From positions 309,737 through 373,736 of the forward strand of contig CAMPDV010000303.1 in assembly GCA_946699065.1 (NCBI GenBank): 64,000 bases of DNA, read 5' to 3'. The stretch's first letter is position 1, and each line of letters begins with the position of its first letter. Below, piece after piece: positions 1 through 64,000 of the stretch. The position numbers were made by a program, and so were the translations under genes. Under the pieces are notes generated by a model that was not told the DNA's origin, searched no databases, and was given only the letters and a program-made list of their open reading frames with translations. The stretch is from Loxodes magnus. Taxonomy: Eukaryota; Ciliophora; Karyorelictea; Loxodida; Loxodidae.

Positions 1-9169
<9,169 letters not shown>

Positions 9170-12100
9170 CTGAATCACTGGATATAGCCACAGATCATAC
9201 AGAACTAGTGTGACCACTCATGGTCTTACAGGTACCTGTCTTGACGTCCCATAGTCTCACCGTATAATCATAACTTCCCGATACGATGAACTCTGAATCA
9301 CTGGATATAGCCACAGATCATACAGAACTAGTGTGACCACTCATGGTCTTACAGGTACCTGTCTTGACGTCCCATAGTCTCACCGTATAATCATAACTTC
9401 CCGATACGATGAACTCTGAATCACTGGATATAGCCACAGCAGATACACAACTAGTGTGACCACTCATGGTCTTACAGGTACCTGTCTTGACGTCCCATAG
9501 TCTCACCGTATAATCATAACTTTCCGATACGATGAACTCTGAATCACTGGATATAGCCACAGCATATACTTAACTAGTGTGACCACTCATGGTCTTACAG
9601 GTACCTGTCTTGACGTCCCATAGTCTCACCGTATAATCATAACTTTCCGATACGATGAACTCTGAATCACTGGATATAGCCACAGCATATACATAATGTG
9701 TGTGACCACTTATGGTCTTACAGGTACCTGTCTTGACGTCCCATAGTCTCACCGTATAATCATAACTTCCCGATACGATGAACTCTGAATCACTGGATAT
9801 AGCCACAGATCATACAGAACTAGTGTGACCACTCATGGTCTTACAGGTACCTGTCTTGACGTCCCATAGTCTCACCGTCTAATCTGCACTTCCCGATACG
9901 ATGAACTCTAAATCACTGGATATAGCCACAGATCATACAGAACTAGTGTGACCACTCATGGTCTTACAGGTACCTGTCTTGACGTCCCATAGTCTCACCG
10001 TCTAATCTGCACTTCCCGATACGATGAACTCTGAATCACTGGATATAGCCACAGATTATACAACACTAGTGTGACCACTTATGGTCTTACAGGTACCTGT
10101 CTTGACGTCCCATAGTCTCACCGTATAATCATAACTTCCCGATACGATGAACTCTGAATCACTGGATATAGCCACAGATCATACACAACTAGTGTGACCA
10201 CTCATGGTCTTACAGGTACCTGTCTTGACGTCCCATAGTCTCACCGTATAATCATAACTTCCCGATACGATGAACTCTGAATCACTGGATATAGCCACAG
10301 ATCATACACAACTAGTGTGACCACTCATGGTCTTACAGGTACCTGTCTTGACGTCCCATAGTCTCACCGTATAATCATAACTTCCCGATACGATGAACTC
10401 TGAATCACTGGATATAGCCACAGCAGATACATAACTAGTGTGACCACTCATGGTCTTACAGGTACCTGTCTTGACGTCCCATAGTCTCACCGTATAATCT
10501 GCACTTCCCGATACGATGAACTCTAAATCACTGGATATGGCCACAGATCATACAGAACTAGTGTGACCACTCATGGTCTTACAGGTACCTGTCTTGACGT
10601 CCCATAGTCTCACCGTCTAATCTGCACTTCCCGATACGATGAACTCTAAATCACTGGATATAGCCACAGATCATACAGAACTAGTGTGACCACTCATGGT
10701 CTTACAGGTACCTGTCTTGACGTCCCATAGTCTCACCGTCTAATCTGCACTTCCCGATACGATGAACTCTGAATCACTGGATATAGCCACAGCAGATACC
10801 TAATTTGTGTGACCACTCATGGTCTTACAGGTACCTGTCTTGACGTCCCATAGTCTCACCGTATAATCATAACTTCCCGATACGATGAACTCTGAATCAC
10901 TGGATATAGCCACAGCAGATACACAACTAGTGTGACCACTCATGGTCTTACAGGTACCTGTCTTGACGTCCCATAGTCTCACCGTCTAATCTGCACTTCC
11001 CGATACGATGAACTCTGAATCACTGGATATAGCCACAGCAGATACACAACTAGTGTGACCACTCATGGTCTTACAGGTACCTGTCTTGACGTCCCATAGT
11101 CTCACCGTCTAATCTGCACTTCCCGATACGATGAACTCTGAATCACTGGATATAGCCACAGCAGATACACAACTAGTGTGACCACTCATGGTCTTACAGG
11201 TACCTGTCTTGACGTCCCATAGTCTCACCGTATAATCATAACTTCCCGATACGATGAACTCTGAATCACTGGATATAGCCACAGCAGATACCTAATTTGT
11301 GTGACCACTCATGGTCTTACAGGTACCTGTCTTGACGTCCCATAGTCTCACCGTCTAATCTGCACTTCCCGATACGATGAACTCTAAATCACTGGATATA
11401 GCCACAGATCATACAGAACTAGTGTGACCACTCATGGTCTTACAGGTACCTGTCTTGACGTCCCATAGTCTCACCGTCTAATCTGCACTTCCCGATACGA
11501 TGAACTCTGAATCACTGGATATAGCCACAGCATATACAACACTAGTGTGACCACTCATGGTCTTACAGGTACCTGTCTTGACGTCCCATAGTCTCACCGT
11601 ATAATCATAACTTCCCGATACGATGAACTCTGAATCACTGGATATAGCCACAGCAGATACAAAACTAGTGTGACCACTCATGGTCTTACAGGTACCTGTC
11701 TTGACGTCCCATAGTCTCACCGTATAATCATAACTTTCCGATACGATGAACTCTGAATCACTGGATATAGCCACAGATCATACAGAACTAGTGTGACCAC
11801 TCATGGTCTTACAGGTACCTGTCTTGACGTCCCATAGTCTCACCGTCTAATCTGCACTTCCCGATACGATGAACTCTGAATCACTGGATATAGCCACAGC
11901 AGATACCTAATTTGTGTGACCACTCATGGTCTTACAGGTACCTGTCTTGACGTCCCATAGTCTCACCGTATAATCATAACTTCCCGATACGATGAACTCT
12001 GAATCACTGGATATAGCCACAGCAGATACACAACTAGTGTGACCACTCATGGTCTTACAGGTACCTGTCTTGACGTCCCATAGTCTCACCGTATAATCAT

Positions 12101-13587
12101 AACTTCCCGATACGATGAACTCTGAATCACTGGATATAGCCACAGCAGATACACAACTAGTGTGACTACTCATGGTCTTACAGGTACCTGTCTTGACGTC
12201 CCATAGTCTCACCGTATAATCATAACTTTCCGATACGATGAACTCTGAATCACTGGATATAGCCACATATCATACATGACTAGTGTGACCACTCATGGTC
12301 TTACAGGTACCTGTCTTGACGTCCCATAGTCTCACCGTCTAATCTGCACTTCCCGATACGATGAACTCTGAATCACTGGATATAGCCACAGCAGATACAC
12401 AACTAGTGTGACCACTCATGGTCTTACAGGTACCTGTCTTGACGTCCCATAGTCTCACCGTATAATCTGCACTTCCCGATACGATGAACTCTGAATCACT
12501 GGATATAGCCACAGCAGATACCTAATTTGTGTGACCACTCATGGTCTTACAGGTACCTGTCTTGACGTCCCATAGTCTCACCGTCTAATCTGCACTTCCC
12601 GATACGATGAACTCTAAATCACTGGATATAGCCACAGATCATACAGAACTAGTGTGACCACTCATGGTCTTACAGGTACCTGTCTTGACGTCCCATAGTC
12701 TCACCGTCTAATCTGCACTTCCCGATACGATGAACTCTGAATCACTGGATATAGCCACAGCAGATACACAACTAGTGTGACCACTCATGGTCTTACAGGT
12801 ACCTGTCTTGACGTCCCATAGTCTCACCGTATAATCTGCACTTCCCGATACGATGAACTCTGAATCACTGGATATAGCCACAGATTATACAACACTAGTG
12901 TGACCACTCATGGTCTTACAGGTACCTGTCTTGACGTCCCATAGTCTCACCGTATAATCATAACTTTCCGATACGATGAACTCTGAATCACTGGATATAG
13001 CCACAGATCATACACAACTAGTGTGACCACTCATGGTCTTACAGGTACCTGTCTTGACGTCCCATAGTCTCACCGTATAATCTGCACTTCCCGATACGAT
13101 GAACTCTGAATCACTGGATATAGCCACAGCATATACTTAACTAGTGTGACCACTCATGGTCTTACAGGTACCTGTCTTGACGTCCCATAGTCTCACCGTC
13201 TAATCTGCACTTCCCGATACGATGAACTCTAAATCACTGGATATAGCCACAGATCATACAGAACTAGTGTGACCACTCATGGTCTTACAGGTACCTGTCT
13301 TGACGTCCCATAGTCTCACCGTCTAATCTGCACTTCCCGATACGATGAACTCTGAATCACTGGATATAGCCACAGCAGATACCTAATTTGTGTGACCACT
13401 CATGGTCTTACAGGTACCTGTCTTGACGTCCCATAGTCTCACCGTATAATCATAACTTCCCGATACGATGAACTCTGAATCACTGGATATAGCCACAGCA
13501 GATACACAACTAGTGTGACCACTCATGGTCTTACAGGTACCTGTCTTGACGTCCCATAGTCTCACCGTCTAATCATAACTTCCCGAT
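9170..13587 (-). CDS. WD40 repeat protein segment, frame-continuous block (about 36 blades), partial
   Basis: From the compensating pair of indels near 9133/9165 to the extra T in GATTACGATG near 13587, every WD40 stretch stays in one minus-strand frame. About 36 blades run on with no linkers. Standard-code stops recur at blade positions 6, 8 and 26 only, leaving open stretches of one to three blades such as 11907-12266 (119 residues) and 11478-11774. The two units at about 9318-9806 include GHTHYVYAVA and two SES (G22E) variants; the same pair recurs exactly 142 units away at about 26800-27282. Role inferred: beta-propeller blades acting as a protein-interaction surface. No start or end of a gene is present. 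Coding status depends on TAA, TAG and TGA being sense codons. Confidence 0.5.
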
Positions 13588-16500
13588 TACGATGAACTCT
13601 GAATCACTGGATATAGCCACAGCAGATACCTAATTTGTGTGACCACTCATGGTCTTACAGGTACCTGTCTTGACGTCCCATAGTCTCACCGTCTAATCAT
13701 AACTTCCCGATACGATGAACTCTGAATCACTGGATATAGCCACAGATCATACACAACTAGTGTGACCACTCATGGTCTTACAGGTACCTGTCTTGACGTC
13801 CCATAGTCTCACCGTATAATCATAACTTCCCGATACGATGAACTCTGAATCACTGGATATAGCCACAGCATATACTTAACTAGTGTGACCACTCATGGTC
13901 TTACAGGTACCTGTCTTGACGTCCCATAGTCTCACCGTATAATCATAACTTCCCGATACGATGAACTCTGAATCACTGGATATAGCCACATATCATACAT
14001 GACTAGTGTGACCACTCATGGTCTTACAGGTACCTGTCTTGACGTCCCATAGTCTCACCGTCTAATCTGCACTTCCCGATACGATGAACTCTGAATCACT
14101 GGATATAGCCACAGATCATACAGAACTAGTGTGACCACTCATGGTCTTACAGGTACCTGTCTTGACGTCCCATAGTCTCACCGTCTAATCTGCACTTCCC
14201 GATACGATGAACTCTGAATCACTGGATATAGCCACAGATCATACAGAACTAGTGTGACCACTCATGGTCTTACAGGTACCTGTCTTGACGTCCCATAGTC
14301 TCACCGTCTAATCTGCACTTCCCGATACGATGAACTCTGAATCACTGGATATAGCCACAGCAGATACCTAATTTGTGTGACCACTCATGGTCTTACAGGT
14401 ACCTGTCTTGACGTCCCATAGTCTCACCGTATAATCATAACTTCCCGATACGATGAACTCTGAATCACTGGATATAGCCACAGCAGATATACAACTAGTG
14501 TGACCACTCATGGTCTTACAGGTACCTGTCTTGACGTCCCATAGTTCTCACCGTCTAATCTGCACTTCCCGATACGATGAACTCTAAATCACTGGATATA
14601 GCCACAGATCATACAGAACTAGTGTGACCACTCATGGTCTTACAGGTACCTGTCTTGACGTCCCATAGTCTCACCGTCTAATCTGCACTTCCCGATACGA
14701 TGAACTCTGAATCACTGGATATAGCCACAGATCATACAGAACTAGTGTGACCACTCATGGTCTTACAGGTACCTGTCTTGACGTCCCATAGTCTCACCGT
14801 CTAATCTGCACTTCCCGATACGATGAACTCTGAATCACTGGATATAGCCACAGATTATACAACACTAGTGTGACCACTTATGGTCTTACAGGTACCTGTC
14901 TTGACGTCCCATAGTCCTCACCGTATAATCATAACTTCCCGATACGATGAACTCTGAATCACTGGATATAGCCACAGATCATACAGAACTAGTGTGACCA
15001 CTCATGGTCTTACAGGTACCTGTCTTGACGTCCCATAGTCTCACCGTCTAATCTGCACTTCCCGATACGATGAACTCTAAATCACTGGATATAGCCACAG
15101 ATCATACAGAACTAGTGTGACCACTCATGGTCTTACAGGTACCTGTCTTGACGTCCCATAGTCTCACCGACTAATCATAACTTCCCGATACGATGACTCT
15201 GAATCACTGGATATAGCCACAGCAGATACCTAATTTGTGTGACCACTCATGGTCTTACAGGTACCTGTCTTGACGTCCCATAGTCCTCACCGTATAATCA
15301 TAACTTCCCGATACGATGAACTCTGAATCACTGGATATAGCCACAGATTATACAACACTAGTGTGACCACTCATGGTCTTACAGGTACCTGTCTTGACGT
15401 CCCATAGTCTCACCGTATAATCATAACTTTCCGATACGATGAACTCTGAATCACTGGATATAGCCACAGATCATACAGAACTAGTGTGACCACTCATGGT
15501 CTTACAGGTACCTGTCTTGACGTCCCATAGTCCTCACCGTCTAATCTGCACTTCCCGATACGATGAACTCTAAATCACTGGATATAGCCACAGATCATAC
15601 AGAACTAGTGTGACCACTCATGGTCTTACAGGTACCTGTCTTGACGTCCCATAGTCTCACCGTCTAATCTGCACTTCCCGATACGATGAACTCTGAATCA
15701 CTGGATATAGCCACAGCAGATACCTAATTTGTGTGACCACTCATGGTCTTACAGGTACCTGTCTTGACGTCCCATAGTCTCACCGTATAATCATAACTTC
15801 CCGATACGATGAACTCTGAATCACTGGATATAGCCACAGCAGATACACAACTAGTGTGACCACTCATGGTCTTACAGGTACCTGTCTTGACGTCCCATAG
15901 TCTCACCGTCTAATCTGCACTTCCCGATACGATGAACTCTGAATCACTGGATATAGCCACAGCAGATACCTAATTTGTGTGGACCACTCATGGTCTTACA
16001 GGTACCTGTCTTGACGTCCCATAGTCTCACCGTATAATCATAACTTCCCGATACGATGAACTCTGAATCACTGGATATAGCCACAGCAGATACCTAATTT
16101 GTGTGACCACTCATGGTCTTACAGGTACCTGTCTTGACGTCCCATAGTCTCACCGTATAATCATAACTTCCCGATACGATGAACTCTGAATCACTGGATA
16201 TAGCCACAGCATATACTTAACTAGTGTGACCACTCATGGTCTTACAGGTACCTGTCTTGACGTCCCATAGTCTCACCGTATAATCATAACTTTCCGATAC
16301 GATGAACTCTGAATCACTGGATATAGCCACAGATTATACAACACTAGTGTGACCACTCATGGTCTTACAGGTACCTGTCTTGACGTCCCATAGTCTCACC
16401 GTCTAATCTGCACTTCCCGATACGATGAACTCTGAATCACTGGATATAGCCACAGATCATACAGAACTAGTGTGACCACTCATGGTCTTACAGGTACCTG

Positions 16501-19495
16501 TCTTGACGTCCCATAGTCTCACCGTCTAATCTGCACTTCCCGATACGATGAACTCTGAATCACTGGATATAGCCACAGCATATACAACACTAGTGTGACC
16601 ACTCATGGTCTTACAGGTACCTGTCTTGACGTCCCATAGTCTCACCGTATAATCATAACTTCCCGATACGATGAACTCTGAATCACTGGATATAGCCACA
16701 GCAGATACACAACTAGTGTGACCACTCATGGTCTTACAGGTACCTGTCTTGACGTCCCATAGTCTCACCGTATAATCATAACTTTCCGATACGATGAACT
16801 CTGAATCACTGGATATAGCCACGGCATATACTTAACTAGTGTGACCACTCATGGTCTTATCAGGTACCTGTCTTGACGTCCCATAGTCTCACCGTATAAT
16901 CTGCACTTCCCGATACGATGAACTCTGAATCACTGGATATAGCCACAGCATATACTTAACTAGTGTGACCACTCATGGTCTTACAGGTACCTGTCTTGAC
17001 GTCCCATAGTCTCATCCCGTCTTAATCTGCACTTCCCGATACGATGAACTCTGAATCACTGGATATAGCCACATATCATACATGACTAGTGTGACCACTC
17101 ATGGTCTTACAGGTACCTGTCTTGACGTCCCATAGTCTCACCGTCTAATCTGCACTTCCCGATACGATGAACTCTGAATCACTGGATATAGCCACAGCAG
17201 ATACACAACTAGTGTGACCACTCATGGTCTTACAGGTACCTGTCTTGACGTCCCATAGTCTCACCGTATAATCTGCACTTCCCGATACGATGAACTCTGA
17301 ATCACTGGATTTAGCCACAGATCATACAGAACTAGTGTGACCACTCATGGTCTTACAGGTACCTGTCTTGACGTCCCATAGTCTCACCGTCTAATCTGCA
17401 CTTCCCGATACGATGAACTCTAAATCACTGGATATAGCCACAGATCATACAGAACTAGTGTGACCACTCATGGTCTTACAGGTACCTGTCTTGACGTCCC
17501 ATAGTCTCACCGTCTAATCTGCACTTCCCGATACGATGAACTCTGAATCACTGGATATAGCCACAGCAGATACACAACTAGTGTGACCACTCATGGTCTT
17601 ACAGGTACCTGTCTTGACGTCCCATAGTCTCACCGTATAATCTGCACTTCCCGATACGATGAACTCTGAATCACTGGATATAGCCACAGATTATAAAACA
17701 CTAGTGTGACCACTCATGGTCTTACAGGTACCTGTCTTGACGTCCCATAGTCTCACCGTATAATCATAACTTTCCGATACGATGAACTCTGAATCACTGG
17801 ATATAGCCACAGCATATACTTAACTAGTGTGACCACTCATGGTCTTACAGGTACCTGTCTTGACGTCCCATAGTCTCACCGTCTAATCTGCACTTCCCGA
17901 TACGATGAACTCTAAATCACTGGATATAGCCACAGATCATACAGAACTAGTGTGACCACTCATGGTCTTACAGGTACCTGTCTTGACGTCCCATAGTCTC
18001 ACCGTCTAATCTGCACTTCCCGATACGATGAACTCTGAATCACTGGATATAGCCACAGCAGATACCTAATTTGTGTGACCACTCATGGTCTTACAGGTAC
18101 CTGTCTTGACGTCCCATAGTCTCACCGTATAATCATAACTTCCCGATACGATGAACTCTGAATCACTGGATATAGCCACAGCAGATACACAACTAGTGTG
18201 ACCACTCATGGTCTTACAGGTACCTGTCTTGACGTCCCATAGTCTCACCGTCTAATCTGCACTTCCCGATACGATGAACTCTGAATCACTGGATATAGCC
18301 ACAGCAGATACCTAATTTGTGTGACCACTCATGGTCTTACAGGTACCTGTCTTGACGTCCCATAGTCTCACCGTCTAATCATAACTTCCCGATACGATGA
18401 ACTCTGAATCACTGGATATAGCCACAGATCATACACAACTAGTGTGACCACTCATGGTCTTACAGGTACCTGTCTTGACGTCCCATAGTCTCACCGTATA
18501 ATCATAACTTCCCGATACGATGAACTCTGAATCACTGGATATAGCCACAGCATATACAACACTAGTGTGACCACTCATGGTCTTACAGGTACCTGTCTTG
18601 ACGTCCCATAGTCTCACCGTATAATCATAACTTCCCGATACGATGAACTCTGAATCACTGGATATAGCCACATATCATACATGACTAGTGTGACCACTCA
18701 TGGTCTTACAGGTACCTGTCTTGACGTCCCATAGTCTCACCGTCTAATCTGCACTTCCCGATACGATGAACTCTGAATCACTGGATATAGCCACAGATCA
18801 TACAGAACTAGTGTGACCACTCATGGTCTTACAGGTACCTGTCTTGACGTCCCATAGTCTCACCGTCTAATCTGCACTTCCCGATACGATGAACTCTAAA
18901 TCACTGGATATAGCCACAGATCATACAGAACTAGTGTGACCACTCATGGTCTTACAGGTACCTGTCTTGACGTCCCATAGTCTCACCGTATAATCATAAC
19001 TTCCCGATACGATGAACTCTGAATCACTGGATATAGCCACAGCATATACTTAACTAGTGTGACCACTCATGGTCTTTACAGGTACCTGTCTTGACGTCCC
19101 ATAGTCTCACCGTATAATCATAACTTTCCGATACGATGAACTCTGAATCACTGGATATAGCCACAGCATATACATAATGTGTGTGACCACTTATGGTCTT
19201 ACAGGTACCTGTCTTGACGTCCCATAGTCTCACCGTCTAATCTGCACTTCCCGATACGATGAACTCTAAATCACTGGATATAGCCACAGATCATACAGAA
19301 CTAGTGTGACCACTCATGGTCTTACAGGTACCTGTCTTGACGTCCCATAGTCTCACCGTCTAATCTGCACTTCCCGATACGATGAACTCTGAATCACTGG
19401 ATATAGCCACAGATTATACAACACTAGTGTGACCACTTATGGTCTTACAGGTACCTGTCTTGACGTCCCCATAGTCTCACCGTATAATCATAACT
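13588..19495 (-). CDS. WD40 repeat protein segment with scattered frame-breaking indels (about 48 units), partial
   Basis: Same blade type. Single-base indels interrupt the frame near 13587, 14545, 14915, 15195, 15285, 15531, 15982, 16860, 19075, 19464 and 19495; a net +3 cluster near 17010-17030 keeps frame. The pairs 15195/15285 and 19464/19495 cancel each other. Between them the frame is clean apart from the recurrent stop positions. The stretch is rich in the SAD-TAG-TVRLWD form and in GHTN-TAG-VSAVA. The three-blade stretch at 16526-16822 is nearly identical to 11478-11774, 41 units away, differing at one residue (Cys versus Phe at blade position 6). Most of these indels look private to single units, so some may be base-calling errors. 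Confidence 0.4.
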
Positions 19496-22400
19496 TCCGA
19501 TACGATGAACTCTGAATCACTGGATATAGCCACAGATCATACAGAACTAGTGTGACCACTCATGGTCTTACAGGTACCTGTCTTGACGTCCCATAGTCTC
19601 ACCGTCTAATCTGCACTTCCCGATACGATGAACTCTAAATCACTGGATATAGCCACAGATCATACAGAACTAGTGTGACCACTCATGGTCTTACAGGTAC
19701 CTGTCTTGACGTCCCATAGTCTCACCGTCTAATCTGCACTTCCCGATACGATGAACTCTGAATCACTGGATATAGCCACAGCAGATACCTAATTTGTGTG
19801 ACCACTCATGGTCTTACAGGTACCTGTCTTGACGTCCCATAGTCTCACCGTATAATCATAACTTCCCGATACGATGAACTCTGAATCACTGGATATAGCC
19901 ACAGATTATACAACACTAGTGTGACCACTCATGGTCTTACAGGTACCTGTCTTGACGTCCCATAGTCTCACCGTATAATCATAACTTTCCGATACGATGA
20001 ACTCTGAATCACTGGATATAGCCACATATCATACATGACTAGTGTGACCACTCATGGTCTTACAGGTACCTGTCTTGACGTCCCATAGTCTCACCGTATA
20101 ATCTGCACTTCCCGATACGATGAACTCTGAATCACTGGATATAGCCACAGCATATACTTAACTAGTGTGACCACTCATGGTCTTACAGGTACCTGTCTTG
20201 ACGTCCCATAGTCTCACCGTCTAATCTGCACTTCCCGATACGATGAACTCTGAATCACTGGATATAGCCACAGCAGATACCTAATTTGTGTGACCACTCA
20301 TGGTCTTACAGGTACCTGTCTTGACGTCCCATAGTCTCACCGTATAATCATAACTTCCCGATACGATGAACTCTGAATCACTGGATATAGCCACAGCAGA
20401 TACACAACTAGTGTGACCACTCATGGTCTTACAGGTACCTGTCTTGACGTCCCATAGTCTCACCGTCTAATCTGCACTTCCCGATACGATGAACTCTGAA
20501 TCACTGGATATAGCCACAGCAGATACCTAATTTGTGTGACCACTCATGGTCTTACAGGTACCTGTCTTGACGTCCCATAGTCTCACCGTATAATCATAAC
20601 TTCCCGATACGATGAACTCTGAATCACTGGATATAGCCACAGCAGATACCTAATTTGTGTGACCACTCATGGTCTTACAGGTACCTGTCTTGACGTCCCA
20701 TAGTCTCACCGTATAATCATAACTTCCCGATACGATGAACTCTGAATCACTGGATATAGCCACAGATTATACAACACTAGTGTGACCACTCATGGTCTTA
20801 CAGGTACCTGTCTTGACGTCCCATAGTCTCACCGTATAATCATAACTTTCCGATACGATGAACTCTGAATCACTGGATATAGCCACAGATTATACAACAC
20901 TAGTGTGACCACTCATGGTCTTACAGGTACCTGTCTTGACGTCCCATAGTCTCACCGTATAATCTGCACTTCCCGATACGATGAACTCTGAATCACTGGA
21001 TATAGCCACAGATCATACAGAACTAGTGTGACCACTCATGGTCTTACAGGTACCTGTCTTGACGTCCCATAGTCTCACCGTCTAATCTGCACTTCCCGAT
21101 ACGATGAACTCTGAATCACTGGATATAGCCACAGCAGATACCTAATTTGTGTGACCACTCATGGTCTTACAGGTACCTGTCTTGACGTCCCATAGTCTCA
21201 CCGTATAATCATAACTTCCCGATACGATGAACTCTGAATCACTGGATATAGCCACAGCAGATACACAACTAGTGTGACCACTCATGGTCTTACAGGTACC
21301 TGTCTTGACGTCCCATAGTCTCACCGTATAATCATAACTTCCCGATACGATGAACTCTGAATCACTGGATATAGCCACAGATTATACAACACTAGTGTGA
21401 CCACTCATGGTCTTACAGGTACCTGTCTTGACGTCCCATAGTCTCACCGTATAATCATAACTTCCCGATACGATGAACTCTGAATCACTGGATATAGCCA
21501 CAGATTATACAACACTAGTGTGACCACTCATGGTCTTACAGGTACCTGTCTTGACGTCCCATAGTCTCACCGTCTAATCTGCACTTCCCGATACGATGAA
21601 CTCTAAATCACTGGATATAGCCACAGATCATACAGAACTAGTGTGACCACTCATGGTCTTACAGGTACCTGTCTTGACGTCCCATAGTCTCACCGTCTAA
21701 TCTGCACTTCCCGATACGATGAACTCTGAATCACTGGATATAGCCACAGCAGATACCTAATTTGTGTGACCACTCATGGTCTTACAGGTACCTGTCTTGA
21801 CGTCCCATAGTCTCACCGTATAATCATAACTTCCCGATACGATGAACTCTGAATCACTGGATATAGCCACAGATTATACAACACTAGTGTGACCACTCAT
21901 GGTCTTACAGGTACCTGTCTTGACGTCCCATAGTCTCACCGTCTAATCTGCACTTCCCGATACGATGAACTCTAAATCACTGGATATAGCCACAGATCAT
22001 ACAGAACTAGTGTGACCACTCATGGTCTTACAGGTACCTGTCTTGACGTCCCATAGTCTCACCGTCTAATCTGCACTTCCCGATACGATGAACTCTGAAT
22101 CACTGGATATAGCCACAGCAGATACCTAATTTGTGTGACCACTCATGGTCTTACAGGTACCTGTCTTGACGTCCCATAGTCTCACCGTATAATCATAACT
22201 TCCCGATACGATGAACTCTGAATCACTGGATATAGCCACAGCAGATACACAACTAGTGTGACCACTCATGGTCTTACAGGTACCTGTCTTGACGTCCCAT
22301 AGTCTCACCGTATAATCTGCACTTCCCGATACGATGAACTCTGAATCACTGGATATAGCCACAGCAGATACCTAATTTGTGTGACCACTCATGGTCTTAC

Positions 22401-50000: not shown

Positions 50001-53000
50001 ACTTTGAATCACTGGATATAGCCACGGCATATACTTAACTAGTGTGACCACTCATGGTCTTACAGGTACCTGTCTTGACGTCCCATAGTCTCACCGTATA
50101 ATCATAACTTCCCGATACGATGAACTCTGAATCACTGGATATAGCCACAGCAGATACACAACTAGTGTGACCACTCATGGTCTTACAGGTACCTGTCTTG
50201 ACGTCCCATAGTCTCACCGTATAATCATAACTTCCCGATACGATGAACTCTGAATCACTGGATATAGCCACAGCAGATACACAACTAGTGTGACCACTCA
50301 TGGTCTTACAGGTACCTGTCTTGACGTCCCATAGTCTCACCGTATAATCATAACTTCCCGATACGATGAACTTTGAATCACTGGATATAGCCACGGCATA
50401 TACTTAACTAGTGTGACCACTCATGGTCTTACAGGTACCTGTCTTGACGTCCCATAGTCTCACCGTATAATCATAACTTCCCGATACGATGAACTCTGAA
50501 TCACTGGATATAGCCACAGCATATACTTAACTAGTGTGACCACTCATGGTCTTACAGGTACCTGTCTTGACGTCCCATAGTCTCACCGTATAATCATAAC
50601 TTCCCGATACGATGAACTCTGAATCACTGGATATAGCCACATATCATACATGACTAGTGTGACCACTCATGGTCTTACAGGTACCTGTCTTGACGTCCCA
50701 TAGTCTCACCGTATAATCTGCACTTCCCGATACGATGAACTCTGAATCACTGGATATAGCCACAGCATATACTTAACTAGTGTGACCACTCATGGTCTTA
50801 CAGGTACCTGTCTTGACGTCCCATAGTCTCACCGTATAATCATAACTTCCGATACGATGAACTCTGAATCACTGGATATAGCCACAGCAGATACAACACT
50901 AGTGTGACCACTCATGGTCTTACAGGTACCTGTCTTGACGTCCCATAGTCTCACCGTATAATCATAACTTCCCGATACGATGAACTCTGAATCACTGGAT
51001 ATAGCCACATATCATACACAACTAGTGTGACCACTCATGGTCTTACAGGTACCTGTCTTGACGTCCCATAGTCTCACCGTATAATCATAACTTCCCGATA
51101 CGATGAACTTTGAATCACTGGATATAGCCACGGCATATACTTAACTAGTGTGACCACTCATGGTCTTACAGGTACCTGTCTTGACGTCCCATAGTCTCAC
51201 CGTATAATCATAACTTCCCGATACGATGAACTCTGAATCACTGGATATAGCCACAGCATATACAACACTAGTGTGACCACTCATGGTCTTACAGGTACCT
51301 GTCTTGACGTCCCATAGTCTCACCGTATAATCATAACTTCCCGATACGATGAACTCTGAATCACTGGATATAGCCACAGCATATACAACACTAGTGTGAC
51401 CACTCATGGTCTTACAGGTACCTGTCTTGACGTCCCATAGTCTCACCGTCTAATCTGCACTTCCCGATACGATGAACTCTGAATCACTGGATATAGCCAC
51501 AGCATATACTTAACTAGTGTGACCACTCATGGTCTTACAGGTACCTGTCTTGACGTCCCATAGTCTCACCGTATAATCATAACTTCCCGATACGATGAAC
51601 TCTGAATCACTGGATATAGCCACAGCAGATACAACACTAGTGTGACCACTCATGGTCTTACAGGTACCTGTCTTGACGTCCCATAGTCTCACCGTATAAT
51701 CATAACTTCCCGATACGATGAACTCTGAATCACTGGATATAGCCACATATCATACACAACTAGTGTGACCACTCATGGTCTTACAGGTACCTGTCTTGAC
51801 GTCCCATAGTCTCACCGTATAATCATAACTTCCCGATACGATGAACTTTGAATCACTGGATATAGCCACGGCATATACTTAACTAGTGTGACCACTCATG
51901 GTCTTACAGGTACCTGTCTTGACGTCCCATAGTCTCACCGTATAATCATAACTTCCCGATACGATGAACTCTGAATCACTGGATATAGCCACAGCATATA
52001 CAACACTAGTGTGACCACTCATGGTCTTACAGGTACCTGTCTTGACGTCCCATAGTCTCACCGTATAATCATAACTTCCCGATACGATGAACTCTGAATC
52101 ACTGGATATAGCCACAGCATATACAACACTAGTGTGACCACTCATGGTCTTACAGGTACCTGTCTTGACGTCCCATAGTCTCACCGTATAATCATAACTT
52201 CCCGATACGATGAACTCTGAATCACTGGATATAGCCACATATCATACATGACTAGTGTGACCACTCATGGTCTTACAGGTACCTGTCTTGACGTCCCATA
52301 GTCTCACCGTATAATCATAACTTCCCGATACGATGAACTCTGAATCACTGGATATAGCCACAGCAGATACAACACTAGTGTGACCACTCATGGTCTTACA
52401 GGTACCTGTCTTGACGTCCCATAGTCTCACCGTATAATCATAACTTCCCGATACGATGAACTCTGAATCACTGGATATAGCCACAGCATATACTTAACTA
52501 GTGTGACCACTCATGGTCTTACAGGTACCTGTCTTGACGTCCCATAGTCTCACCGTATAATCATAACTTCCCGATACGATGAACTCTGAATCACTGGATA
52601 TAGCCACAGCATATACAACACTAGTGTGACCACTCATGGTCTTACAGGTACCTGTCTTGACGTCCCATAGTCTCACCGTCTAATCTGCACTTCCCGATAC
52701 GATGAACTCTGAATCACTGGATATAGCCACAGCAGATACACAACTAGTGTGACCACTCATGTCTTACAGGTACCTGTCTTGACGTCCCATAGTCTCACCG
52801 TATAATCATAACTTCCCGATACGATGAACTCTGAATCACTGGATATAGCCACAGATCATACACAACTAGTGTGACCACTCATGGTCTTACAGGTACCTGT
52901 CTTGACGTCCCATAGTCTCACCGTATAATCATAACTTCCCGATACGATGAACTCTGAATCACTGGATATAGCCACAGCAGATACAACACTAGTGTGACCA

Positions 53001-54304
53001 CTCATGGTCTTACAGGTACCTGTCTTGACGTCCCATAGTCTCACCGTATAATCATAACTTCCCGATACGATGAACTCTGAATCACTGGATATAGCCACAG
53101 ATCATACACAACTAGTGTGACCACTCATGGTCTTACAGGTACCTGTCTTGACGTCCCATAGTCTCACCGTATAATCATAACTTCCCGATACGATGAACTC
53201 TGAATCACTGGATATAGCCACAGCATATACAACACTAGTGTGACCACTCATGGTCTTACAGGTACCTGTCTTGACGTCCCATAGTCTCACCGTATAATCA
53301 TAACTTCCCGATACGATGAACTCTGAATCACTGGATATAGCCACATATCATACATGACTAGTGTGACCAACTCATGGTCTTACAGGTACCTGTCTTGACG
53401 TCCCATAGTCTCACCGTATAATCATAACTTCCCGATACGATGAACTCTGAATCACTGGATATAGCCACAGATCATACACAACTAGTGTGACCACTCATGG
53501 TCTTACAGGTACCTGTCTTGACGTCCCATAGTCTCACCGTATAATCATAACTTCCCGATACGATGAACTCTGAATCACTGGATATAGCCACAGCATATAC
53601 AACACTAGTGTGACCACTCATGGTCTTACAGGTACCTGTCTTGACGTCCCATAGTATCACCGTATAATCATAACTTCCCGATACGATGAACTCTGAATCA
53701 CTGGATATAGCCACATATCATACATGACTAGTGTGACCACTCATGGTCTTACAGGTACCTGTCTTGACGTCCCATAGTCTCACCGTATAATCATAACTTC
53801 CCGATACGATGAACTCTGAATCACTGGATATAGCCACAGCATATACAACACTAGTGTGACCACTCATGGTCTTACAGGTACCTGTCTTGACGTCCCATAG
53901 TCTCACCGTATAATCATAACTTCCCGATACGATGAACTCTGAATCACTGGATATAGCCACATATCATACATGACTAGTGTGACCACTCATGGTCTTACAG
54001 GTACCTGTCTTGACGTCCCATAGTCTCACCGTATAATCATAACTTCCCGATACGATGAACTTTGAATCACTGGATATAGCCACAGCAGATACACAACTAG
54101 TGTGACCACTCATGGTCTTACAGGTACCTGTCTTGACGTCCCATAGTCTCACCGTATAATCATAACTTCCCGATACGATGAACTCTGAATCACTGGATAT
54201 AGCCACAGCATATACTTAACTAGTGTGACCACTCATGGTCTTACAGGTACCTGTCTTGACGTCCCATAGTCCTCACCGTATAATCATAACTTCCCGATAC
54301 GATG
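47098..54304 (-). CDS. WD40 repeat protein segment, homogeneous right zone (about 59 units), partial
   Basis: Blades here almost all have [10 protein letters not shown]; the TAG form at position 26 is rare. Remaining standard-code stops are mainly TAA at position 6 (GHTS-x-VYAVA) and TGA at position 8. Frame changes come from isolated single-base indels near 49550 (extra G in ACTAGGTG), 50849 (CCC to CC), 52760 (GG to G), 53370 (extra A in GACCAACTC) and the cancelling pair 54271/54304. None of these is present in the equivalent unit of the duplicate copy 8,856 bp to the right, so they are probably sequence errors and the true frame probably runs on. Several units carry E17K (SDSKF), linked to a GCC codon at Ala9 or Ala11. 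Confidence 0.45.
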
Positions 54305-55144
54305 ACTCTGAATCACTGGATATAGCCACATATCATACATGACTAGTGTGACCACTCATGGTCTTACAGGTACCTGTCTTGACGTCCCATAGTCTCACCG
54401 TATAATCATAACTTCCCGATACGATGAACTCTGAATCACTGGATATAGCCACAGATCATACACAACTAGTGTGACCACTCATGGTCTTACAGGTACCTGT
54501 CTTGACGTCCCATAGTCTCACCGTATAATCATAACTTCCCGATACGATGAACTCTGAATCACTGGATATAGCCACAGCATATACTTAACTAGTGTGACCA
54601 CTCATGGTCTTACAGGTACCTGTCTTGACGTCCCATAGTCTCACCGTATAATCATAACTTCCCGATACGATGAACTCTGAATCACTGGATATAGCCACAG
54701 CATATACTTAACTAGTGTGACCACTCATGGTCTTACAGGTACCTGTCTTGACGTCCCATAGTCTCACCGTATAATCATAACTTCCCGATACGATGAACTC
54801 TGAATCACTGGATATAGCCACAGCATATACAACACTAGTGTGACCACTCATGGTCTTACAGGTACCTGTCTTGACGTCCCATAGTCTCACCGTCTAATCT
54901 GCACTTCCCGATACGATGAACTCTGAATCACTGGATATAGCCACAGCAGATACACAACTAGTGTGACCACTCATGGTCTTACAGGTACCTGTCTTGACGT
55001 CCCATAGTCTCACCGTATAATCATAACTTCCCGATACGATGAACTCTGAATCACTGGATATAGCCACAGATCATACACAACTAGTGTGACCACTCATGGT
55101 CTTACAGGTACCTGTCTTGACGTCCCATAGTCTCACCGTCTAAT
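48615..55144 (-). repeat. 72-unit higher-order repeat, copy A
   Basis: From about 48,615 the order of blade variants matches that starting at about 57,471, an offset of 8,856 bp = 72 x 123. The match continues to the right edge of the window (64,000 pairs with 55,144). In the stretches I compared base by base I saw no substitution differences; the copies differed only by single-base indels private to one copy. To the left of 48,615 the variable segments differ, so this marks one junction. The 2.3 kb at about 55,145-57,470 (19 units) is the rest of the 72-unit period. Confidence 0.85.
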
Positions 55145-57796
55145 CATAACTTCCCGATACGATGAACTCTGAATCACTGGATATAGCCACAGCAGATACA
55201 ACACTAGTGTGACCACTCATGGTCTTACAGGTACCTGTCTTGACGTCCCATAGTCTCACCGTATAATCATAACTTCCCGATACGATGAACTCTGAATCAC
55301 TGGATATAGCCACAGCAGATACAACACTAGTGTGACCACTCATGGTCTTACAGGTACCTGTCTTGACGTCCCATAGTCTCACCGTATAATCATAACTTCC
55401 CGATACGATGAACTCTGAATCACTGGATATAGCCACAGATCATACACAACTAGTGTGACCACTCATGGTCTTACAGGTACCTGTCTTGACGTCCCATAGT
55501 CTCACCGTATAATCATAACTTCCCGATACGATGAACTCTGAATCACTGGATATAGCCACAGCAGATACCTAATTTGTGTGACCACTCATGGTCTTACAGG
55601 TACCTGTCTTGACGTCCCATAGTCTCACCGTCTAATCTGCACTTCCCGATACGATGAACTCTGAATCACTGGATATAGCCACAGCAGATACACAACTAGT
55701 GTGACCACTCATGGTCTTACAGGTACCTGTCTTGACGTCCCATAGTCTCACCGTATAATCATAACTTCCCGATACGATGAACTCTGAATCACTGGATATA
55801 GCCACAGCATATACAACACTAGTGTGACCACTCATGGTCTTACAGGTACCTGTCTTGACGTCCCATAGTCTCACCGTATAATCATAACTTCCCGATACGA
55901 TGAACTCTGAATCACTGGATATAGCCACATATCATACATGACTAGTGTGACCACTCATGGTCTTACAGGTACCTGTCTTGACGTCCCATAGTCTCACCGT
56001 ATAATCATAACTTCCCGATACGATGAACTCTGAATCACTGGATATAGCCACAGCAGATACAACACTAGTGTGACCACTCATGGTCTTACAGGTACCTGTC
56101 TTGACGTCCCATAGTCTCACCGTATAATCATAACTTCCCGATACGATGAACTCTGAATCACTGGATATAGCCACAGCATATACTTAACTAGTGTGACCAC
56201 TCATGGTCTTACAGGTACCTGTCTTGACGTCCCATAGTCTCACCGTATAATCATAACTTCCCGATACGATGAACTCTGAATCACTGGATATAGCCACAGC
56301 AGATACCTAATTTGTGTGACCACTCATGGTCTTACAGGTACCTGTCTTGACGTCCCATAGTCTCACCGTATAATCATAACTTCCCGATACGATGAACTCT
56401 GAATCACTGGATATAGCCACGGCATATACTTAACTAGTGTGACCACTCATGGTCTTACAGGTACCTGTCTTGACGTCCCATAGTCTCACCGTATAATCAT
56501 AACTTCCCGATACGATGAACTCTGAATCACTGGATATAGCCACAGCAGATACACAACTAGTGTGACCACTCATGGTCTTACAGGTACCTGTCTTGACGTC
56601 CCATAGTCTCACCGTATAATCATAACTTCCCGATACGATGAACTCTGAATCACTGGATATAGCCACAGCATATACAACACTAGTGTGACCACTCATGGTC
56701 TTACAGGTACCTGTCTTGACGTCCCATAGTCTCACCGTCTAATCTGCACTTCCCGATACGATGAACTCTGAATCACTGGATATAGCCACAGCAGATACAC
56801 AACTAGTGTGACCACTCATGGTCTTACAGGTACCTGTCTTGACGTCCCATAGTCTCACCGTATAATCATAACTTCCCGATACGATGAACTCTGAATCACT
56901 GGATATAGCCACAGCAGATACACAACTAGTGTGACCACTCATGGTCTTACAGGTACCTGTCTTGACGTCCCATAGTCTCACCGTATAATCATAACTTTCC
57001 GATACGATGAACTCTGAATCACTGGATATAGCCACAGCATATACATAATGTGTGTGACCACTTATGGTCTTACAGGTACCTGTCTTGACGTCCCATAGTC
57101 TCACCGTATAATCATAACTTCCCGATACGATGAACTCTGAATCACTGGATATAGCCACAGATCATACAGAACTAGTGTGACCACTCATGGTCTTACAGGT
57201 ACCTGTCTTGACGTCCCATAGTCTCACCGTATAATCATAACTTCCCGATACGATGAACTCTGAATCACTGGATATAGCCACAGATCATACACAACTAGTG
57301 TGACCACTCATGGTCTTACAGGTACCTGTCTTGACGTCCCATAGTCTCACCGTATAATCATAACTTCCCGATACGATGAACTCTGAATCACTGGATATAG
57401 CCACAGCATATACAACACTAGTGTGACCACTCATGGTCTTACAGGTACCTGTCTTGACGTCCCATAGTATCACCGTATAATCATAACTTCCCGATACGAT
57501 GAACTCTGAATCACTGGATATAGCCACAGCAGATACACAACTAGTGTGACCACTCATGGTCTTACAGGTACCTGTCTTGACGTCCCATAGTCTCACCGTA
57601 TAATCATAACTTCCCGATACGATGAACTTTGAATCACTGGATATAGCCACGGCATATACTTAACTAGTGTGACCACTCATGGTCTTACAGGTACCTGTCT
57701 TGACGTCCCATAGTCTCACCGTATAATCATAACTTCCCGATACGATGAACTCTGAATCACTGGATATAGCCACAGATCATACACAACTAGTGTGAC
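54305..57796 (-). CDS. WD40 repeat protein segment, frame-continuous (about 28 blades), partial
   Basis: All blades between the indels near 54304 and 57797 share one minus-strand frame. The stretch 56739-57158 (139 residues, about 3.4 blades) is the longest part of the window open in the standard code without any frame mixing. It ends at a TAG at blade position 26 and starts, as a conventional call, at a GTG inside a blade, so that start is an artefact. It contains the GHTHYVYAVA blade with Met41 replaced by Ile and an SES turn, like those at 9318-9806 and 26800-27282. As elsewhere, stops fall only at blade positions 6, 8 and 26. Confidence 0.5.
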
Positions 57797-60700
57797 CCAC
57801 TCATGGTCTTACAGGTACCTGTCTTGACGTCCCATAGTCTCACCGTATAATCATAACTTCCCGATACGATGAACTCTGAATCACTGGATATAGCCACATA
57901 TCATACACAACTAGTGTGACCACTCATGGTCTTACAGGTACCTGTCTTGACGTCCCATAGTCTCACCGTATAATCATAACTTCCCGATACGATGAACTTT
58001 GAATCACTGGATATAGCCACATATCATACATGACTAGTGTGACCACTCATGGTCTTACAGGTACCTGTCTTGACGTCCCATAGTCTCACCGTATAATCAT
58101 AACTTCCCGATACGATGAACTCTGAATCACTGGATATAGCCACAGCAGATACAACACTAGTGTGACCACTCATGGTCTTACAGGTACCTGTCTTGACGTC
58201 CCATAGTCTCACCGTATAATCATAACTTCCCGATACGATGAACTCTGAATCACTGGATATAGCCACAGCAGATACACAACTAGTGTGACCACTCATGGTC
58301 TTACAGGTACCTGTCTTGACGTCCCATAGTCTCACCGTATAATCATAACTTCCCGATACGATGAACTCTGAATCACTGGATATAGCCACATATCATACAG
58401 AACTAGTGTGACCACTCATGGTCTTACAGGTACCTGTCTTGACGTCCCATAGTCTCACCGTATAATCATAACTTCCCGATACGATGAACTCTGAATCACT
58501 GGATATAGCCACAGCATATACACACTAGTGTGACCACTCATGGTCTTACAGGTACCTGTCTTGACGTCCCATAGTCTCACCGTATAATCATAACTCCCGA
58601 TACGATGAACTCTGAATCACTGGATATAGCCACATATCATACACAACTAGTGTGACCACTCATGGTCTTACAGGTACCTGTCTTGACGTCCCATAGTCTC
58701 ACCGTATAATCATAACTTCCCGATACGATGAACTTTGAATCACTGGATATAGCCACGGCATATACATTACTAGTGTGACCACTCATGGTCTTACAGGTAC
58801 CTGTCTTGACGTCCCATAGTCTCACCGTATAATCATAACTTCCCGATACGATGAACTTTGAATCACTGGATATAGCCACGGCATATACTTAACTAGTGTG
58901 ACCACTCATGGTCTTACAGGTACCTGTCTTGACGTCCCATAGTCTCACCGTATAATCATAACTTCCCGATACGATGAACTCTGAATCACTGGATATAGCC
59001 ACAGCAGATACACAACTAGTGTGACCACTCATGGTCTTACAGGTACCTGTCTTGACGTCCCATAGTCTCACCGTATAATCATAACTTCCCGATACGATGA
59101 ACTCTGAATCACTGGATATAGCCACAGCAGATACACAACTAGTGTGACCACTCATGGTCTTACAGGTACCTGTCTTGACGTCCCATAGTCTCACCGTATA
59201 ATCATAACTTCCCGATACGATGAACTTTGAATCACTGGATATAGCCACGGCATATACTTAACTAGTGTGACCACTCATGGTCTTACAGGTACCTGTCTTG
59301 ACGTCCCATAGTCTCACCGTATAATCATAACTTCCCGATACGATGAACTCTGAATCACTGGATATAGCCACAGCATATACTTAACTAGTGTGACCCACTC
59401 ATGGTCTTACAGGTACCTGTCTTGACGTCCCATAGTCTCACCGTATAATCATAACTTCCCGATACGATGAACTCTGAATCACTGGATATAGCCACATATC
59501 ATACATGACTAGTGTGACCACTCATGGTCTTACAGGTACCTGTCTTGACGTCCCATAGTCTCACCGTATAATCTGCACTTCCCGATACGATGAACTCTGA
59601 ATCACTGGATATAGCCACAGCATATACTTAACTAGTGTGACCACTCATGGTCTTACAGGTACCTGTCTTGACGTCCCATAGTCTCACCGTATAATCATAA
59701 CTTCCCGATACGATGAACTCTGAATCACTGGATATAGCCACAGCAGATACAACACTAGTGTGACCACTCATGGTCTTACAGGTACCTGTCTTGACGTCCC
59801 ATAGTCTCACCGTATAATCATAACTTCCCGATACGATGAACTCTGAATCACTGGATATAGCCACATATCATACACAACTAGTGTGACCACTCATGGTCTT
59901 ACAGGTACCTGTCTTGACGTCCCATAGTCTCACCGTATAATCATAACTTCCCGATACGATGAACTTTGAATCACTGGATATAGCCACGGCATATACTTAA
60001 CTAGTGTGACCACTCATGGTCTTACAGGTACCTGTCTTGACGTCCCATAGTCTCACCGTATAATCATAACTTCCCGATACGATGAACTCTGAATCACTGG
60101 ATATAGCCACAGCATATACAACACTAGTGTGACCACTCATGGTCTTACAGGTACCTGTCTTGACGTCCCATAGTCTCACCGTATAATCATAACTTCCCGA
60201 TACGATGAACTCTGAATCACTGGATATAGCCACAGCATATACAACACTAGTGTGACCACTCATGGTCTTACAGGTACCTGTCTTGACGTCCCATAGTCTC
60301 ACCGTCTAATCTGCACTTCCCGATACGATGAACTCTGAATCACTGGATATAGCCACAGCATATACTTAACTAGTGTGACCACTCATGGTCTTACAGGTAC
60401 CTGTCTTGACGTCCCATAGTCTCACCGTATAATCATAACTTCCCGATACGATGAACTCTGAATCACTGGATATAGCCACAGCAGATACAACACTAGTGTG
60501 ACCACTCATGGTCTTACAGGTACCTGTCTTGACGTCCCATAGTCTCACCGTATAATCATAACTTCCCGATACGATGAACTCTGAATCACTGGATATAGCC
60601 ACATATCATACACAACTAGTGTGACCACTCATGGTCTTACAGGTACCTGTCTTGACGTCCCATAGTCTCACCGTATAATCATAACTTCCCGATACGATGA

Positions 60701-63700
60701 ACTTTGAATCACTGGATATAGCCACGGCATATACTTAACTAGTGTGACCACTCATGGTCTTACAGGTACCTGTCTTGACGTCCCATAGTCTCACCGTATA
60801 ATCATAACTTCCCGATACGATGAACTCTGAATCACTGGATATAGCCACAGCATATACAACACTAGTGTGACCACTCATGGTCTTACAGGTACCTGTCTTG
60901 ACGTCCCATAGTCTCACCGTATAATCATAACTTCCCGATACGATGAACTCTGAATCACTGGATATAGCCACAGCATATACAACACTAGTGTGACCACTCA
61001 TGGTCTTACAGGTACCTGTCTTGACGTCCCATAGTCTCACCGTATAATCATAACTTCCCGATACGATGAACTCTGAATCACTGGATATAGCCACATATCA
61101 TACATGACTAGTGTGACCACTCATGGTCTTACAGGTACCCTGTCTTGACGTCCCATAGTCTCACCGTATAATCATAACTTCCCGATACGATGAACTCTGA
61201 ATCACTGGATATAGCCACAGCAGATACAACACTAGTGTGACCACTCATGGTCTTACAGGTACCTGTCTTGACGTCCCATAGTCTCACCGTATAATCATAA
61301 CTTCCCGATACGATGAACTCTGAATCACTGGATATAGCCACAGCATATACTTAACTAGTGTGACCACTCATGGTCTTACAGGTACCTGTCTTGACGTCCC
61401 ATAGTCTCACCGTATAATCATAACTTCCCGATACGATGAACTCTGAATCACTGGATATAGCCACAGCATATACAACACTAGTGTGACCACTCATGGTCTT
61501 ACAGGTACCTGTCTTGACGTCCCATAGTCTCACCGTCTAATCTGCACTTCCCGATACGATGAACTCTGAATCACTGGATATAGCCACAGCAGATACACAA
61601 CTAGTGTGACCACTCATGGTCTTACAGGTACCTGTCTTGACGTCCCATAGTCTCACCGTATAATCATAACTTCCCGATACGATGAACTCTGAATCACTGG
61701 ATATAGCCACAGATCATACACAACTAGTGTGACCACTCATGGTCTTACAGGTACCTGTCTTGACGTCCCATAGTCTCACCGTATAATCATAACTTCCCGA
61801 TACGATGAACTCTGAATCACTGGATATAGCCACAGCAGATACAACACTAGTGTGACCACTCATGGTCTTACAGGTACCTGTCTTGACGTCCCATAGTCTC
61901 ACCGTATAATCATAACTTCCCGATACGATGAACTCTGAATCACTGGATATAGCCACAGATCATACACAACTAGTGTGACCACTCATGGTCTTACAGGTAC
62001 CTGTCTTGACGTCCCATAGTCTCACCGTATAATCATAACTTCCCGATACGATGAACTCTGAATCACTGGATATAGCCACAGCATATACAACACTAGTGTG
62101 ACCACTCATGGTCTTACAGGTACCTGTCTTGACGTCCCATAGTCTCACCGTATAATCATAACTTCCCGATACGATGAACTCTGAATCACTGGATATAGCC
62201 ACATATCATACATGACTAGTGTGACCACTCATGGTCTTACAGGTACCTGTCTTGACGTCCCATAGTCTCACCGTATAATCATAACTTCCCGATACGATGA
62301 ACTCTGAATCACTGGATATAGCCACAGATCATACACAACTAGTGTGACCACTCATGGTCTTACAGGTACCTGTCTTGACGTCCCATAGTCTCACCGTATA
62401 ATCATAACTTCCCGATACGATGAACTCTGAATCACTGGATATAGCCACAGCATATACAACACTAGTGTGACCACTCATGGTCTTACAGGTACCTGTCTTG
62501 ACGTCCCATAGTATCACCGTATAATCATAACTTCCCGATACGATGAACTCTGAATCACTGGATATAGCCACATATCATACATGACTAGTGTGACCACTCA
62601 TGGTCTTACAGGTACCTGTCTTGACGTCCCATAGTCTCACCGTATAATCATAACTTCCCGATACGATGAACTCTGAATCACTGGATATAGCCACAGCATA
62701 TACAACACTAGTGTGACCACTCATGGTCTTACAGGTACCTGTCTTGACGTCCCATAGTCTCACCGTATAATCATAACTTCCCGATACGATGAACTCTGAA
62801 TCACTGGATATAGCCACATATCATACATGACTAGTGTGACCACTCATGGTCTTACAGGTACCTGTCTTGACGTCCCATAGTCTCACCGTATAATCATAAC
62901 TTCCCGATACGATGAACTTTGAATCACTGGATATAGCCACAGCAGATACACAACTAGTGTGACCACTCATGGTCTTACAGGTACCTGTCTTGACGTCCCA
63001 TAGTCTCACCGTATAATCATAACTTCCCGATACGATGAACTCTGAATCACTGGATATAGCCACAGCATATACTTAACTAGTGTGACCACTCATGGTCTTA
63101 CAGGTACCTGTCTTGACGTCCCATAGTCTCACCGTATAATCATAACTTCCCGATACGATGAACTCTGAATCACTGGATATAGCCACATATCATACATGAC
63201 TAGTGTGACCACTCATGGTCTTACAGGTACCTGTCTTGACGTCCCATAGTCTCACCGTATAATCATAACTTCCCGATACGATGAACTCTGAATCACTGGA
63301 TATAGCCACAGATCATACACAACTAGTGTGACCACTCATGGTCTTACAGGTACCTGTCTTGACGTCCCATAGTCTCACCGTATAATCATAACTTCCCGAT
63401 ACGATGAACTCTGAATCACTGGATATAGCCACAGCATATACTTAACTAGTGTGACCACTCATGGTCTTACAGGTACCTGTCTTGACGTCCCATAGTCTCA
63501 CCGTATAATCATAACTTCCCGATACGATGAACTCTGAATCACTGGATATAGCCACAGCATATACTTAACTAGTGTGACCACTCATGGTCTTACAGGTACC
63601 TGTCTTGACGTCCCATAGTCCTCACCGTATAATCATAACTTCCCGATACGATGAACTCTGAATCACTGGATATAGCCACAGCATATACAACACTAGTGTG

Positions 63701-64000
63701 ACCACTCATGGTCTTACAGGTACCTGTCTTGACGTCCCATAGTCTCCACCGTCTAATCTGCACTTCCCGATACGATGAACTCTGAATCACTGGATATAGC
63801 CACAGCAGATACACAACTAGTGTGACCACTCATGGTCTTACAGGTACCTGTCTTGACGTCCCCATAGTCTCACCGTATAATCATAACTTCCCGATACGAT
63901 GAACTCTGAATCACTGGATATAGCCACAGATCATACACAACTAGTGTGACCACTCATGGTCTTACAGGTACCTGTCTTGACGTCCCATAGTCTCACCGTC
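57797..64000 (-). CDS. WD40 repeat protein segment, right end (about 50 units), partial
   Basis: Continues the WD40 frame with isolated indels near 57797 and 59393 (extra C in GACCCACTC), 58520, 58594, 61139 (extra C in TACCCTG), 63620, 63746 and 63860. Between 61140 and 63619 about 20 blades stay in one frame. Because the matching units in copy A lack these indels, I infer most are base-calling errors. Blades alternate mainly between SVVYAV, SVVSAV, SCVSAV and forms with TGA at position 8. The upstream (5') part of any gene lies beyond the right edge. Confidence 0.45.
63948..63961. other. Per-unit inverted repeat (representative copy)
   Basis: GACCA-CTCA-TGGTC forms a perfect 5-bp stem with a 4-nt loop and recurs in nearly every unit; this is the last copy in the window. 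On the coding strand it spans the Thr-Met-Ser-Gly junction between blades. The recurrent 1-nt deletion at 32.6-47.1 kb removes a base from the loop, and a variant loop CTTA accounts for M41I. Whether the structure has a function, or only promotes slippage, is unknown. Confidence 0.5.

Follow-up and report, generated by a model that had tools for sequence, protein, structure and literature searches.

The right end of a contig of the ciliate Loxodes magnus (CAMPDV010000303.1, here C303, 373,736 bases long) is built of copies of a single type of WD40 blade, which we have analysed over 64 kb (C303:309737-373736, hereafter the window). In this genome TAA and TAG are glutamine codons and TGA is a tryptophan codon. 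The array is very probably a satellite of WD40 blades in a karyorelict genome that uses this code, and its blades would come from a large hypervariable gene family. A preliminary description of the window, made from its letters, had proposed that all three stop codons are reassigned, which is right but already published for karyorelicts.

According to Tandem Repeats Finder, bases 1-63999 form a single tandem array with a period of 123. Three consensus units match the Pfam WD40 family (PF00400) with 110 bits, against a cut-off of 27, and an E-value of 3.2e-32. The extent given at the outset, 9170..64000, does consist of the array, but the array reaches base 1 and fills the whole window. Bases 1-9170 may have been omitted there on account of the many single-base indels in this part of the array.

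1..64000, minus strand: tandem array of WD40 blades, 520 complete units of 123 bp (41 codons), obtained by cyclic alignment to a consensus
9867..64000, minus strand: units mostly in one frame, with 43 indels, none of them in 19716-29556, and stops at codons 17, 19 and 37

The 520 units contain 500 in-frame stops, and 499 of these are at blade codons 17, 19 and 37. There are 121 stops at codon 17 (69 TAG, 52 TAA), 236 at codon 19 (194 TGA, 42 TAA) and 142 at codon 37, all TAG. The single outlying stop, a TGA, is at codon 39 of a unit that carries indels, and the remaining 37 codons have none. The preliminary description had counted the three positions as 6, 8 and 26 (an offset of 11) and reported stops only there, in at least five combinations of codon and position; apart from codon 39, the full tabulation bears this out.

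The variation in the window is concentrated in six codons, 16, 17, 19, 20, 35 and 37, and the stops are confined because the variation is confined. Outside the six codons there are 35 types of substitution in the window, seven of them synonymous and none creating a stop. Of the 315 possible single changes there, 73 are synonymous and 11 create a stop. It had been argued that codons one change from a stop elsewhere in the blade should be hit by decay. None is hit, but only about one stop is expected there by chance, and the zero is therefore no strong evidence for reassignment. Confinement alone is no proof; the reassignment is proven by evidence from the whole genome.

For this the assembly, 705,730,643 bases in 7,843 contigs, was searched for conserved genes. 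In-frame TAA or TAG is present in all 150 tubulin matches listed (150 of 258 candidates were scored) and in 96 out of 96 actin matches, and many of these have TGA as well. Tubulin fragments were read with NCBI table 27, the karyorelict nuclear code, and aligned to solved tubulins. In an alpha-tubulin (L053) five out of five TAA or TAG codons (TAR) fall on glutamine, and in a beta-tubulin (L059) seven out of seven, i.e. 12 out of 12 in these two conserved proteins. The only TGA of L059 falls on tryptophan, as does the only one of a diverged beta-tubulin (L061), in which 9 out of 15 TAR are on glutamine. The TGA of a further tubulin (L060) is at a position where L059 has TGG. In total, 11 tubulin fragments contain 54 TAA, 10 TAG, 32 CAA, 3 CAG, 4 TGA and 10 TGG, where the ratio of TGA to TGG is biased because L059-L061 were picked for having a TGA listed. 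A standard code was looked for in the tubulins and actins and not found: in this genome TAA and TAG are read as glutamine and TGA as tryptophan, in line with the reassignment of all three stops proposed in the preliminary description. Mutagenesis like that of diversity-generating retroelements (DGR) or repeat-induced point mutation (RIP) had been considered as a source of the stops, and was dropped after the conserved genes had shown the code.

The genome paper describes table 27 as the code of L. magnus, with TGA, near the poly-A tail, as the sole terminator, and presents a 706 Mbp macronuclear (MAC) assembly with many tandem repeats (PMC11441545). The same code was predicted in 2016 for Condylostoma and for a Parduczia-like karyorelict, and for Condylostoma it is described as backed by ribosome profiling and mass spectrometry (PMC4967479). 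Our observations agree with table 27 as known from L. magnus and the Parduczia-like species: all three stops occur in frame in conserved genes, and we see no difference in the glutamine and tryptophan readings compared.

Tubulin and actin genes are present in many near-identical copies per contig and in both orientations (C64, C266, C707, C711), a sign of local gene amplification. Dozens of equal-score tRNA matches were found on C78, C103 and C158. Runs of them are regularly spaced, at 527 bases on C103 and about 1,752 bases on C78 and C158, which suggests tandem units containing a tRNA.

Blades like those of the array are found in a family of genes. One member (P0001) lies on the minus strand of C303, about 10 kb beyond the left edge of the array, and is open under table 27. 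Its N-terminus is rich in Cys and is followed by a long stretch rich in Gln, by eye coiled-coil-like. Next come pentapeptide repeats (PF00805; 22.6 bits, cut-off 20.2) and a WD40 propeller scoring 225.7 bits, and the protein ends in a C-terminal tail. By eye the propeller has seven blades, and the middle ones resemble the array. P0001 is the one family gene scanned against Pfam, and NACHT and HET are absent both from the seven families listed for its N-terminal 514 amino acids and from the 25 of 33 families listed for the gene. A RING finger at the N-terminus was rejected, as zf-RING_2 gives 11.2 bits (E = 0.46) against a cut-off of 27.3 and only the spacing of Cys and His is RING-like.

The N-terminal and the C-terminal module each have at least 150 matches in the genome, those of the C-terminal module coming from 84,338 first-look candidates that include ordinary WD40 blades. 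We picked by eye 41 pairs of N- and C-terminal matches as single genes, leaving out C2428, which has a partial match. The distance between the two modules is 1,713-1,757 bases in 21 pairs and 1,962-1,971 bases in 18, while 1,614 and 2,208 bases occur once each. The two main groups are about 246 bases, or about two blades, apart, and one gene exceeds the longer group by about 240 bases. The number of blades may change in steps of two.

To sample the blades of the genes, we used 22 stretches, i.e. 20 fetched copies and the genes on C303 and C2306. By eye, 14 of these 22 keep a single frame over their whole length. The C-terminal module set the reading frame, and blades outside that frame were left out of the count. 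Forty-eight blades from 17 of the 22 stretches passed a motif rule; L096 and L097 are duplicates, as are L099 and L100, and there are 40 distinct sequences. From contig to contig the genes have almost the same blade backbone, and the codons that vary are the same six as in the window. Among the 40 distinct blades the mean diversity is 0.353 in the six variable codons versus 0.045 elsewhere. All of their stops (22 out of 22) are at codons 17 (5 TAG), 19 (8 TGA, 1 TAA) and 37 (8 TAG). The end blade of the C303 gene, outside this count, has a TGA at codon 35. As the genes carry the same stops at the variable positions, the stops of the window stand for glutamine and tryptophan there.

To place the variable codons in the blade we use a predicted model of part of the array.

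23776..24636, minus strand: seven consecutive units, translated with table 27 and predicted with high confidence by single-sequence AlphaFold to form repeated four-stranded sheets (predicted local distance difference test, pLDDT, 93; predicted TM-score, pTM, 0.90)

In the model, codons 16-17 belong to the loop that precedes the first strand, codons 19-20 are at the start of this strand, and codons 35-37 fall in the loop joining strands two and three. According to the secondary structure of this model, the variable codons are thus in or beside loops at one end of the blade. In WD40 propellers the top face is where these loops come together. The variable face may bind ligands.

Genes of the family are often located at contig ends and point outward, e.g. 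C14:1699477, C43:3170, C169:217 and C27:3037. Among the matches listed (at least 150), 64 lie no more than 20 kb from the left end of their contig; of these, 59 are on the minus strand and 5 on the plus strand. Inward-pointing copies are present on C27, C91 and C564. The placement could be subtelomeric, but breaks of the assembly at satellites might also produce it; by eye, none of the six contig starts read shows a recognisable telomere repeat. The left end of C303 itself (L033, C303:1-10000) is an AT-rich 98-bp satellite with 101.7 copies and 97% matches. By eye, C81, C27 and C10 begin with similar sequence, and C169, C320 and C453 do not.

On C303 the array begins near base 37,150 and continues to the end of the contig, a length of about 336 kb if it is unbroken. 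In addition to the window we sampled 15 loci, each about 10 kb long, from the interval of 40 to 310 kb. They cover somewhat more than half of this interval, and 15 out of 15 are array throughout. In the 1,724 units of these loci and the window, codons 17, 19 and 37 account for 1,184 out of 1,188 stops. The other four are TGA, three at codon 33 and one at codon 39. Six other contigs, of 25.6 to 222 kb each and 619 kb summed, are array at 20 out of 20 sample points. By extrapolation, the array may total about 0.95 Mb in the assembly. None of these six contigs is among the family-module matches listed, at least 150 for the C-terminal and at least 150 for the N-terminal module.

The left (3') edge of the array on C303 is cut in the middle of a blade and is followed by AT-rich DNA with a frame that by eye is reverse-transcriptase-like. 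The C-terminal module of the family was not found at this edge. The 5' side lies beyond the end of C303. Between the family gene and the array (L058, L034:8400-9000) there are reverse-transcriptase-like and zinc-knuckle-like frames, retrotransposon-like by eye.

Indels are unevenly distributed, and three further features of the window concern them or the order of the units.

1..9866, minus strand: indel-rich stretch of the array, with 79 of the 122 single-base indels of the window, from alignment to the consensus
32500..47200 (approximate), minus strand: recurrent 1-bp deletion at codon 12 in 14 units, from the alignment and unit labels
48489..63987 (approximate), minus strand: higher-order repeat, in which the series of units 0 to about 53 is repeated, with its order almost unchanged, at a distance of 72 units (about 8.9 kb), read by eye from the string of labels

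The excess in 1..9866 is probably due to poor polishing. The 78 units of the adjoining stretch on C303 (300001-309736) contain 57 indels. In the window, many of the indels are inside short homopolymers, by eye, and some are therefore probably errors. In 14 interior loci (L035-L048) there are 27 indels in 1,126 units, and a few recur in addition to the codon-12 deletion. Thirteen of the 14 units with that deletion belong to one haplotype of 30 units, of which 17 are without it. At an offset of 72, the unit identity in the window is 0.136, versus 0.043 by chance.

To estimate constraint, units with deletions were dropped (1,643 of 1,724 were kept) and the variable codons excluded. The nonsynonymous/synonymous ratio of all array units is 1.06 for all variants, 0.70 for those seen at least 3 times and 0.77 for those seen at least 10 times. 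In the interior loci it is 0.84 for all variants and 0.64 for those seen at least 3 times, and in the family genes 0.47. On a backbone that hardly varies, the array has 160 haplotypes of the variable codons. Five of the 40 distinct gene blades have an exact counterpart among the array units over all 123 nucleotides, and 8 of the 40 gene haplotypes are found among the 160 of the array. The blades and haplotypes in common indicate a recent common origin or exchange, of which the sharing itself gives no direction. It looks like the array is a satellite that grew from gene blades and is now under little constraint.

A prokaryotic or viral origin was rejected. Viral contigs gave 14 pattern matches and no confirmed relatives, no protein match was found among phages and no DNA match among plasmids, and 24 WD40 loci in prokaryote genomes have 38-54% identity.

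The satellite probably formed as follows. In frame, TAA and TAG mean glutamine and TGA means tryptophan, and near the 3' end TGA would mean stop. The backbone of the blades is near-identical within and between genes, which points to concerted evolution, but some six residues at one end of the blade change freely. Glutamine and tryptophan are among the residues used at these positions, which is why 'stop' codons are found there and hardly anywhere else. Unequal exchange may then have amplified blade units into the array of about 336 kb on C303 and those on the other contigs.

Several observations weigh against this account. In the diverged tubulin L061, 6 out of 15 TAR fall on Ser, Glu, Gly or Asp and not on Gln. 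Two exact patterns for tRNAs reading UAA and UAG gave 0 matches; 63 tRNA matches were scored of 42,786 first-look candidates, and seven out of seven fetched are tRNA-Lys(TTT). Eight of the 22 gene stretches change frame by eye (L090, L091, L092, L093, L101, L102, L106, L108), which may reflect short introns, pseudogenes or errors. The contrast between array and genes in the nonsynonymous/synonymous ratio is small and comes from few variants. Seven of the 14 interior loci, with about 80 units each, have no indel, which would also fit a translated array. Finally, the length of the array is taken from the MAC assembly (PacBio/Falcon), for which its authors suspect misassembly of tandem repeats (PMC11441545).

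We weighed three other explanations. Under the standard code the window would be a decayed pseudogene array, in which nonsense mutations arose in the variable codons and were spread by duplication. The confinement of the stops would follow from variability here as well, with few stop-making changes expected outside the variable codons, and the substitutions of the array look close to neutral. However, the tubulins and actins of the same genome carry TAA, TAG and TGA, in the conserved copies at glutamine and tryptophan positions, and gene copies that keep a single frame have the stops of the array, at identical blade positions. We regard decay under the standard code as extremely improbable, and as to the code the in-frame stops of the tubulin and actin genes reject it. 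If instead the array were one giant translated gene of thousands of blades, with the stops read through, the open frame under code 27, the interior loci without indels and the good fold predicted for seven units would all be accounted for. It would have to end in the middle of a blade, without the C-terminal module and next to AT-rich sequence that by eye is reverse-transcriptase-like. Its frame would be broken by recurrent 1-bp deletions and its constraint is weak, and the same array fills all 20 points on six other contigs that are without family-module matches among those listed. A giant gene is thus very unlikely. The array is probably not translated as one protein, and the mid-blade 3' edge, the recurrent deletions and the weak constraint together make it probably a satellite.

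In the third alternative the array is a silent library of blades from which gene conversion would feed new ligand-facing residues to the family. The array units identical to gene blades, the haplotypes in common and the 160 haplotypes kept on a near-constant backbone would fit such a library. However, common descent explains the sharing equally well and no direction of transfer is seen, and the genes also have a blade in common with each other (L098 and L102). We consider a library rather unlikely. A wider version is a speculation that we hold to be unlikely. In it, well over 100 propeller genes, many of them at contig ends, would form a hypervariable recognition system, and the satellite would be a germline library that exchanges units with them and supplies new ligand-facing residues. 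Diversity would thus be kept in the DNA of the array and shown by ordinary propeller genes, and the former stops would widen the set of residues. A satellite of blades from a hypervariable gene family, in a genome that uses table 27, remains our preferred explanation.

The code is already known, and what is notable is that the raw sequence alone pointed to the reassignment of the stops. If the variable face binds partners, the family would be a candidate recognition system, one that we did not find described in the literature searched. With the satellite one can ask whether repetitive DNA can serve as a store from which coding diversity is drawn. No description of this ciliate WD40 family or of a blade satellite was found in the literature searched, supplements not covered, and the main text of the L. 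magnus genome paper does not contain 'WD40' (PMC11441545). A hypervariable, concertedly evolving WD40 family in a ciliate, together with a very large satellite of the same blades, seems to be new.

Two known systems resemble what we find. Megasatellites and other coding-repeat satellites consist of long head-to-tail units recognisable as protein repeats, and the units of the array are of the same kind; judging from titles, no WD40-blade case is apparent among the megasatellite papers listed. The blades themselves are similar in pattern to the fungal HNWD genes, WD40 repeats of high internal conservation such as het-d and het-e of Podospora anserina. These belong to the fungal self/non-self receptors and have the same combination of near-identical blades and few hypervariable codons. 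The fungal genes are described as evolving in concert, with the hypervariable codons at a predicted interaction surface and with exchange of repeats between genes (PMC12222747). As no NACHT domain is found in the gene scanned, the ciliate family is HNWD-like in its blades and not a member. In contrast to the fungal genes, it has Cys-rich, coiled-coil-like and pentapeptide parts and no NACHT or HET listed for that gene, its matches in this single genome number at least 150, and it is accompanied by a satellite of its blades.

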